Shown: piece by piece, positions 4,062 to 40,929 of the stretch
How the letters are laid out: each line of letters opens with the position of its first letter
How positions within the stretch are numbered: position 1 is the stretch's first letter
Source of the DNA: Acidobacteria bacterium Ga0077522
GTDB taxonomy: Bacteria > Acidobacteriota > Vicinamibacteria > Vicinamibacterales > Vicinamibacteraceae
Length of the DNA stretch: 41,021 bases
NCBI GenBank assembly: GCA_001464065.1
Contig: LNDN01000046.1
Span: 1-41,021, forward strand
Direction of reading: 5' to 3'
Notes under the pieces: model-generated
Database searches by the model: none
What the model was told of the DNA's origin: nothing
Seen by the model: the letters and a program-made list of their open reading frames with translations, nothing else
Program-made: the position numbers and the translations under genes

Positions 4062-6086
<2,025 letters not shown>

Positions 6087-12911: not shown

Positions 12912-13760
12912 ATGACCGATCCCACACTCACCAGTCGTCGTCATCCACTCGTCGCGCGCTGCCGCGACGCCGCCGACGGTCATGCCGATGAGGTCCTCCT
13001 CGAAGGACCGCATCTGGTGGCCGACGCCCTCCGTGCCGGGGTGGCCCTCGCCGTCGTCCTCGTCGCGGAAGGCGCCGACGCACGTCCGGACGTCGCCGCC
13101 ATCGTGCAGGACGCCCGCCGACGGGGGCATCTCATCCAGCGCGTCACTCTCGGCGTGCTCGATGCCGCGAGTCCGACCCGCACGCCGGTGGGCATCGTGG
13201 CGCTCGCGTCCGTGCCCCTGCGTGACCCGGCGGCGTTGCTGCACCCTGCCCCCGCGCTCGTCACGGTCGCGATCGGCATCCAGGACCCCGGCAATGTCGG
13301 CACGCTCATCAGGAGCAGCGAGGCCGCGGGGGCCACGGGGTTCCTCGCGACCGGCGGCACCGCCCACCCGCTCGGCTGGAAGGCGCTGCGCGGCGCAATG
13401 GGCAGTTCGCTCCGTCTCCCCGTCGCGCGCGTGGCCGAGACGATGACGGGACTGGAGGCGCTGCAGCACGCCGGCCTGCGACTCGTCGCCCTGGACGCCA
13501 CTGGTGAGGTCGACCTGCACACCGCCGATCTCGAGGGGCCGCTCGCCGTCTGCGCCGGCGCCGAGGGCGCCGGTCTGCCCGAGGCCGTGCTGGCGATGGC
13601 CGACGTCCGGCTCCGCATCCCCATGCACCCGCCGGTCGAGTCGCTCAACGTCGGCGTGGCGACCAGCCTGGTGCTGTTCGAAATCGCGCGACAACGCCGC
13701 GCCGCGGCCACGGGCGACGCTGTGGGTAGGGGCGACGCTGTGGGTAGGGCCGGCCCCGGT
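12912..13760 (+). CDS. SpoU/TrmH-family RNA 2'-O-methyltransferase; no stop codon of its own before rarA
   Basis: A SAM-dependent trefoil-knot (SPOUT) enzyme that methylates ribose in rRNA or tRNA. After an N-terminal substrate-binding segment (DEVLLEGPHLVADALRAG), motif 1 is GIQDPGNVGTLIRSSEAAGA, motif 2 is GAMGSSLRLPV, and motif 3 is CAGAEGAGLPEA then IPMHPPVESLNVGVATSLVL, so the catalytic domain is complete to FEIARQRR. The frame has no stop there; it stays open through all of rarA to 15179. A TAG in another frame lies at 13727-13729, so a one-base deletion just upstream would explain the loss. The end given here is the base before the last one preceding rarA, not a real stop. An 18-base tandem duplication (13714-13749) lies at the junction. 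Confidence 0.75.
13714..13757. repeat. 18-base tandem duplication with a REP-like fragment
   Basis: GCGACGCTGTGGGTAGGG occurs at 13714-13731 and again from 13732. The second copy continues into GGGCCGGCC, so its end (GGGTAGGGCCGG) matches the flank and first arm of the dispersed hairpin family seen at 33734 and 40771. It looks like a truncated member of that family. It lies across the end of the SpoU methyltransferase gene, just before the rarA start. Confidence 0.7.
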
Positions 13761-13761
13761 C

Positions 13762-15132
13762 ATGAGCGAACCGAGCCTGTTCCCGAGCAGCGGCGATCGC
13801 CACGACGCGGGCCCGCGCCCCACCGGGCACGTGCCGCTGGCCGACCGCATGCGTCCGCGCACCATCGACGAGATCGTCGGCCAGGAGGCGCTGCTCGCCC
13901 CCGGGCGGCCGTTGCGCGAAGCCATCGATCGCGACGTCCTGCAGTCGGTGATCCTGTGGGGACCACCGGGCACGGGCAAGACCACCCTGGCGCGCGCCAT
14001 CGCCAATGCGACAGCGGCGCGTTACGTGTCGTTCAGCGCCGTGCTGTCGGGCGTCAAGGACGTCAAGCAGGTGATGACCGATGCCGCACTGGCCCGTCAG
14101 CGCGACGGCGCTCGCACAGTGGTGTTCGTCGACGAAATCCACCGGTTCAACCGGGCCCAGCAGGACGCCTTCCTCCCCCACGTCGAAGCCGGCGACATCG
14201 TCCTCGTCGGGGCCACCACGGAGAATCCCTCGTTCGAGGTCAATGCCGCGCTGCTGTCGCGGTCCAAGGTCTTCGTGCTGGCGTCGCTCACGCCCGAGGC
14301 CATCGCCACCATCCTCGAGCGGGCCCTGACCGACGCCGAGCGCGGGCTCGGCGCGGGCGACGTGCAGGTCGAGGACGGGGTGCTCCGCGCCATCGCCGTC
14401 CATGCCAACGGCGACGCGCGCAGCGCCCTCAACCTGCTCGAACTGGCGGTCAGCGTGGTACCCGACGCCGCCCCGCGTCTGTTGACCCGCGAGCACCTGT
14501 CCCCGCTGGTCGCTCGCCGCACGCTGCGGTACGACAAGGGCGGCGAGGAGCACTTCAACCTCATCTCGGCCCTGCACAAGTCGCTGCGCAACAGCGATCC
14601 CGATGCCGCCGTCTACTGGCTCGCCCGCATGCTGGAATCGGGCGAGGACCTGATGTACGTGGCGCGCCGGCTCGTCCGCTTCGCGTCGGAGGACATCGGC
14701 AACGCCGACCCGCAGGCCCTGCCCCTCGCCATCGCCGCGCAGCAGGCGGCACACCTGCTCGGCCTGCCCGAGGCCAACACGGCCCTGTCGCAAGCGGCGC
14801 TGTACCTGGCCACCGCGCCGAAGAGCAACGCCGTGTACGTCGCCTACAACGACGCGGCCGACGCCGCCAGGCGGGACGAGGCCGAACCGGTCCCGCTGCA
14901 CCTGCGCAATGCGCCAACGCGGCTGATGAAGCAGCTCGACTACAGCAAGGGCTACGAGTACGCCCACGATGCGGCCGACGCCATCACCGGCATGGACTGC
15001 CTGCCGCCGGCCCTGCAGGGGCGGCAGTTCTACCGCCCGACCGACCGCGGCTTCGAAAAGGAAATCGCGCGGCGACTCGAGGGCTGGCGCGAGATCAAGC
15101 GGAAACGTCGAACGCCGAACGCCGAACGATGA
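13762..15132 (+). CDS. rarA: replication-associated recombination protein A (MgsA/WRNIP1 family AAA+ ATPase)
   Basis: RarA acts at stalled replication forks. The 456-residue protein has the family start SLFPSSGDR...PLADRMRPRTIDEIVGQ, Walker A GPPGTGKTT (67-75), Walker B VVFVDEIHRFN (120-130), sensor-type VGATTENPSFEVNAALLSR, and the C-terminal tetramerisation part (LISALHKSLRNSDPDAAVYW; QALPLAIAAQQAAH; YVAYNDA). The ATG at 13762 gives the conserved N-terminus; no strong Shine-Dalgarno sequence is seen. The last residues (RRTPNAER) are encoded by a tandem 7-base repeat and are likely a lineage-specific tail. Confidence 0.96.
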   Translation: MSEPSLFPSSGDRHDAGPRPTGHVPLADRMRPRTIDEIVGQEALLAPGRPLREAIDRDVLQSVILWGPPGTGKTTLARAIANATAARYVSFSAVLSGVKDVKQVMTDAALARQRDGARTVVFVDEIHRFNRAQQDAFLPHVEAGDIVLVGATTENPSFEVNAALLSRSKVFVLASLTPEAIATILERALTDAERGLGAGDVQVEDGVLRAIAVHANGDARSALNLLELAVSVVPDAAPRLLTREHLSPLVARRTLRYDKGGEEHFNLISALHKSLRNSDPDAAVYWLARMLESGEDLMYVARRLVRFASEDIGNADPQALPLAIAAQQAAHLLGLPEANTALSQAALYLATAPKSNAVYVAYNDAADAARRDEAEPVPLHLRNAPTRLMKQLDYSKGYEYAHDAADAITGMDCLPPALQGRQFYRPTDRGFEKEIARRLEGWREIKRKRRTPNAER

Positions 15133-15153
15133 GGCGGGAGTCGGGAGGCGGGG
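15105..15153. repeat. heptanucleotide repeat at the 3' end of rarA
   Basis: From 15105 the 7-mer AACGCCG is repeated with variants (AACGTCG, AACGCCG twice, AACGATG) and encodes the last residues and stop of RarA. After the stop a second heptad type follows: GGGAGTC, GGGAGGC, GGGG. The same GGGAGTC type occurs at 33680-33707. Confidence 0.7.
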
Positions 15154-15179
15154 CGTTCCGTCGTCGTCGCCAGTCGTAG

Positions 15180-19795: not shown

Positions 19796-19877
19796 GGGTA
19801 GGGCGAGTTCTCCGAACGCGTCGGAGACCACCACCCTACCCATGGGACTGACAGACGGCCGGCTCGGAGAGCCGGCC
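19796..19877. repeat. two REP-like hairpins between ppdK and corA
   Basis: The first (19796-19841) has terminal inverted repeats GGGTAGGG and CCCTACCC enclosing an inner CTCCGA/TCGGAG stem. The second (19857-19877) has arms GGCCGGCTC and GAGCCGGCC around GGA, followed by CCCTCCCCC, and begins 8 bases past the ppdK stop. On the minus strand they could terminate or stabilise the ppdK transcript. The rest of the 137-base gap shows nothing else. Confidence 0.8.
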
Positions 19878-19885
19878 CTCCCCCA

Positions 19886-33707: not shown

Positions 33708-33733
33708 GGCGTCGTGTCGGCGTCGGGGAATCG

Positions 33734-33757
33734 GGTAGGGCCGGCTCTCCGAGCCGG
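33734..33757. repeat. REP-like hairpin downstream of hisS
   Basis: GGGTAGGG (33733-33740) is followed by arms CCGGCTC and GAGCCGG around TCC (33741-33757). It starts about 10 bases after the hisS stop on the minus strand and may act as a terminator or 3'-end stabiliser. Confidence 0.8.
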
Positions 33758-40770: not shown

Positions 40771-40929
40771 GGGTAGGGACGGCTCTCCGAGCCGTCCGTC
40801 TCCGCCCGACGACAGCAATCCCTCACGGCCGGCTCGGAGAGCCGGCCCTCCCACGTTCTTTCCCCAAGGCCGACGGCCCGGTGCCGAAGGCCATTCCATG
40901 ACGGCCGGCTGGGACAGCCGGCCCTACCC
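40771..40929. repeat. 159-base REPIN-like cluster between ilvN and ilvC
   Basis: The region is bounded by inverted ends GGGTAGGG (40771-40778) and CCCTACCC (40922-40929) and holds three hairpins. The first is 40777-40797, arms GGACGGCTC and GAGCCGTCC. The second is 40827-40847, arms GGCCGGCTC and GAGCCGGCC. The third is 40903-40923, arms GGCCGGCT and AGCCGGCC. It fills nearly the whole gap and begins right after the ilvN stop. It may separate ilvC expression from the upstream genes. Confidence 0.8.

Follow-up and report, generated by a model that had tools for sequence, protein, structure and literature searches.

The methyltransferase gene upstream of rarA has no stop codon at its end in the stretch of DNA that was analysed (41,021 nucleotides, the window), and its reading frame crosses a degenerate REP element and runs over the whole of rarA in another phase. 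At all of the 68 orthologous loci that were read, the gene stops normally. We consider that this is quite likely a real and passive loss of the stop at a junction that carries a REP, whatever the mutation behind it. The features of the locus are collected in Table 1.

Table 1. Features of the methyltransferase-rarA locus (positions of the window).
Feature	Position	Strand	Remarks
SpoU-family 2'-O-ribose RNA methyltransferase, conserved part	12912..13700	+	C-terminal ...FEIARQRR
5-bp direct tandem CGCCG-CGCCG	13695..13704	+	End of the conserved part; read directly from the sequence
First 18-bp unit, GGGCGACGCTGTGGGTAG, REP 5' part	13712-13729	+	GTAG tag 13726-13729
Second 18-bp unit, GGGCGACGCTGTGGGTAG, identical	13730-13747	+	GTAG tag 13744-13747
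REP stub, GGCCGGCCCCGGTCA, hairpin lost	13748..13762	+	Folding and comparison with intact REPs
rarA (mgsA), AAA+ ATPase	13762-15132	+	MgsA_C PF12002 (227 bits), PF16193, PF00004
Continuation of the methyltransferase frame	13701..15179	+	REP-coded AAATGDAVGRGDAVGRAGP, then Arg-rich out-of-frame reading of rarA

The open methyltransferase frame and its tail

The methyltransferase likely starts at the ATG at 12912, and its codons begin at positions divisible by 3, according to the frame analysis of the window. The open frame begins already upstream of this ATG, passes the FEIARQRR motif (ending at 13700) and meets its first stop at TAG 15177-15179, in such a way that 755 amino acids are encoded from the ATG, confirming the original prediction of a frame without a stop that spans all of rarA. 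The real coding frame of 13762-15132 is that of rarA, which is 87-89% identical to three congeners; it lies one base on from the methyltransferase phase and is contained completely within the open frame. The Pfam SpoU_methylase domain (PF00588, 101.8 bits, DNA about 13260-13679) is complete, covering profile positions 3-142 of 142 and thus intact to the last one, and a SpoU_sub_bind match (30.4 bits) was also detected. Among the NCBIfam equivalogs, RlmB scored 97.2 bits vs a cut-off of 160 and TrmH 54.8 bits vs 227, and every one of the nearest RlmB/TrmH models stayed under its cut-off. The genome contains other SpoU-family matches, which could make a loss of this methyltransferase tolerable. 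A second SpoU paralog, 37% identical, is found in the same genome (C35:44556-45332), and the frame around it is open over 757 codons. No match to the locus was found on plasmids.

Arg makes up 25.6% of the continuation of the frame past the conserved part, in which Pfam gave no match. Beyond 13762, the three codon positions of this frame have GC contents of 0.90/0.73/0.49, compared with 0.83/0.54/0.86 in the domain part, and the coding pattern there is therefore the one of rarA, seen out of phase. When the synonymous codons of rarA were shuffled (5,000 times), 3.4% of the shuffles stayed open from one end of the gene to the other and the median position of the first stop was codon 113, so the length of the tail alone is only mildly unusual. 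This openness is the point in favor of a functional fusion, or of an overlapping gene in the second frame of rarA. Against it, this frame is interrupted by stops in two congeners (G001 and G003), the tail carries no domain and is Arg-rich as is typical of out-of-phase reading, and the synonymous change in rarA is 0.35-0.40 in the pairs that include the window and 0.33-0.41 among congeners, so no slowing toward the window was found in this comparison. In a third congener, G002, the frame over rarA is open, yet its methyltransferase does not enter it. The long tail is thus passive, nothing points to a role of the second frame, and a functional long tail found no support in domains or constraint. 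A functional second frame was rejected after examining domains, congener stops and synonymous rates, none of which spoke in its favor; we regard it as very improbable that the REP insertion converted a coupled gene pair into a fully nested one, with a methyltransferase of 755 residues actually produced and its Arg-rich tail, translated from rarA in another frame, retained for a role such as RNA binding.

A degenerate REP at the junction

The junction holds the 18-base tandem duplication that had been noticed before, as two identical units followed directly by GGCCGG, and the suspicion that it ends in a fragment of a REP-like family proved right: it is a degenerate GTAG-tagged REP, consisting of two exact GTAG-bearing copies of 18 bp and a hairpin-less stub, from a family with 189 matches in the genome. 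The copy in the window keeps the GTAG, whereas its folding gives -2.0 kcal/mol, without any hairpin signal, vs -12.1 kcal/mol (z -3.67) for the family consensus. It is exact only over the 5' part of the REP (GTGGGTAGGGCCGG, with 26 exact copies in the genome), and because its 3' half is degenerate, the exact boundary of the element is uncertain. A terminal GTCA, such as intact REPs have, would supply the A of the rarA ATG. With up to one mismatch, GGGTAGGGCCGG occurs 5 times in the window, vs 0.27 expected. Other matches to the REP core are located at 33733-33744 (+), 40771-40782 (+), 40918-40929 (-) and 19872-19883 (-).

The TAGs at 13727 and 13745, one in each 18-bp unit, are the GTAG tags of the REP, and both are in the same frame, one that the methyltransferase misses, together with the TGA overlapping the rarA ATG. 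The methyltransferase crosses the REP in a stop-free frame (GTG GGT AGG). TAG 13727, taken in the original prediction as the proper end of the protein, is a tag of the repeat itself and not the ancestral stop. To bring TAG 13727 (or 13745) into frame, the upstream sequence would need a net +1 or -2 bases; the one-base deletion that had been invoked for this holds if it means a base already lost from the gene, and not otherwise.

The family consensus is GGGTAGGGCCGGCTCTCCGAGCCGGCCGTCA, and its pattern, with 0 matches in the reversed control of every genome tried, including this one, gave 52, 72, 13 and 1 matches in the congeners, 8 and 0 in two sister-genus genomes, and none in a more distant one. 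The REPs of this genome are often arranged as head-to-head pairs. A RAYT gene was found in contig C241 (ORF 4981-5658, NF047646, 95.8 bits vs a cut-off of 80) with REPs on both sides (C241 4866, 4914, 5012 and 5689), so that C241 4866-5720 is a REPtron of a Luteitalea REP family, in the classical GTAG REP/RAYT arrangement. GTAG- and CGTC-tagged REPs with RAYT/TnpA-REP, including REPs inside or ending ORFs, have been described (BMC Genomics 2013, PMC3733652). The genome family shares with those GTAG REPs (PMC3733652) a short hairpin with GTAG at its 5' foot, the pairing of inverted copies, a tyrosine transposase gene bordered by REPs, and copies at ORF ends where the GTAG can give a TAG stop; unlike them, the copy in the window has its GTAG in the wrong frame, hence providing no stop, and it is hairpin-less, with a tandem 18-bp REP 5' unit.

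Among sampled REPs, the GTAG supplies an apparent TAG stop to the upstream gene at loci L008 and L070 (minus strand), and at L013 the REP is read through stop-free (...VGRAGSPSRPS...) as a C-terminal extension of the upstream gene (...AVGRAGSPSRPSGESA). The GTAG tags often provide the stops of neighboring ORFs, and the methyltransferase frame misses them. In an Lhr-type helicase gene (C322, L136 about 260-360), an in-frame REP pair with two 18-bp units, QADAVGRADAMGRAGSPSRPSSS, was observed, in a frame open over 1425 codons; the alignments with congener helicases break around this insert, where G001 has 12 residues vs about 60 in this genome. Tandem REP 5' halves (GGGTAGGGC plus about 9 variable bases) were also seen upstream of REPs on contigs C3, C18, C29, C57, C217, C218, C260, C290 and C322, besides 13712-13747 of the window, with a period mostly of 18 and also of 17-21. 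With period 18, such tandems were matched 16 times here and not once in six relatives. They may have arisen by slippage or through the transposase.

Orthologous junctions and the loss of the stop

The methyltransferase-rarA pair was read at 68 other loci, a few of them being the same species twice. The stop falls 20-39 codons past the SLN motif in 68/68 of these loci, vs 512 codons in the window. In most of the 68 it lies at the beginning of rarA or close to it, ATGA is the commonest ending, and in relatives the two genes are mostly joined via a short start/stop overlap. This comparison of orthologous junctions, proposed with the original prediction, thus separates the window from the loci that stop normally beyond chance. 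A contig search for relatives gave none above about 50% identity.

Four congener genomes (genus Luteitalea) were available, of which G004 is without both genes, perhaps from incompleteness. G001 and G003 share the window's phase between methyltransferase and rarA, and their methyltransferases end at a TGA that lies within the GTGAGTGAG start of rarA. The window bases aligned to this region are ATGAGCGA, with a rarA start of ATGAGCGAA, in such a way that the in-frame TGA reads CGA; the second codon of rarA is AGT in G001 and G003 and AGC in the window, both Ser, so the difference is silent. Since G001 and G003 share the phase of the window and carry the TGA in the rarA start, no frameshift or sequence error is required. 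G002 has ATGAGCGAG with a different phase and stops at ATGA. No REP is present at the methyltransferase-rarA junction of the congeners. Those of G001 and G002 (L132/L133) hold a different short tandem repeat, of GGGAGTC/GGGAATC type, so this boundary has gathered repeats repeatedly, a REP here and that type in two congeners.

Polarizing substitution vs indel through a tree was attempted and abandoned, as the four-species, eight-gene matrix gave 46 sites each for the pairing of the window with G001 and with G002, leaving both standing and rejecting only G001 plus G002 with the window outside. Because of this, the GTGAGTGAG state of the congeners is not proven ancestral.

A GTAG-type REP, with its two 18-bp 5' units and hairpin-less stub, sits between the genes, and, most simply, the TGA inside the rarA start (GTGAGTGAG) would have been replaced by CGA (ATGAGCGAA), silently for rarA. 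Judging from the aligned bases, that one silent substitution would be enough to lose the stop, and the REP need not itself have removed it. The methyltransferase frame passes the REP stop-free, missing the TAG of the GTAG, and then stays open because the GC-rich downstream gene has few stops in that phase.

Since G002 is in the other phase and its pairing with the window is left standing by the tree, an indel from a G002-like state could also have occurred, for instance by slippage at the CGCCG tandem, which would have shifted a gene that once ended at the TAG of the REP or at the ATGA and that would now be decaying. This tandem is one conceivable site for a frame-changing event, TAG 13727 and the rarA ATGA fall in one and the same missed frame, the ATGA is the commonest ending of orthologs, and G002 displays that phase. 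However, tandems of 5 bp are not rare in DNA so rich in GC and this one could be due to chance, two of the three congeners already have the phase of the window so that no indel is needed, and the methyltransferase domain is intact to the end of its profile; we hold this route as possible and rather doubtful. Within a real stop loss, a substitution would be somewhat favored over an indel. An error of the assembly, with the true gene ending at the TAG of the REP or at the rarA ATGA, is possible, less likely than a real stop loss and in our estimation unlikely. The assembly is a draft of 429 contigs, and either a net +1/-2 bases upstream, which would bring TAG 13727 or the TGA at the rarA ATG in frame, or one miscalled base at the former stop would suffice. 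Against this, as the 18-bp copies are identical, an erroneous indel must lie outside them, confined to about 26 bases (13701-13711 or 13748-13762), and a wrong number of copies was rejected as the cause, 18 being a multiple of 3 that leaves the frame unchanged. Among the three options originally offered, a lost stop at a junction bearing a repeat fits best, a frameshift or error is not required, and a functional tail is unsupported.

REP spread and tightly packed operons

In Rickettsia, palindromic elements (RPE) are repeats read in frame within proteins. The case described here resembles them in that a short mobile palindrome is read stop-free as protein (GDAVGR here, DAVGRADAMGRAGSPSRPS in the Lhr-type helicase), and differs in involving another repeat in another phylum and, in the methyltransferase, the very end of the gene, where the stop has been lost. 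Overlapping genes can also arise through 3' extension after loss of a stop codon. Similarly, an upstream gene has here lost its stop and entered the downstream gene in another frame, with the difference that the overlap extends over all of the downstream gene (about 1.4 kb) and not over a few bases.

This kind of event is already known, and the stop loss, which is probably real, looks like an accident of REP spread in collision with a start/stop overlap of a GC-rich operon rather than a new kind of gene. The methyltransferase, to judge from its intact domain, may still work, or its decay may just be beginning; a long product, should the cell make one, would at most be a methyltransferase whose tail is useless, and the stop-start coupling to rarA would be lost as a consequence. 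For annotation, the call of a 755-aa "methyltransferase" would be wrong in its last two thirds. The locus illustrates clearly what happens when a REP family spreads into bacterial operons whose starts and stops overlap tightly: the GTAG tag gives a stop in one frame and none here, and the GC-rich composition lets the frame run over the next gene. Production of the long protein, if it occurred, would offer a test of how cells tolerate the loss of a stop.
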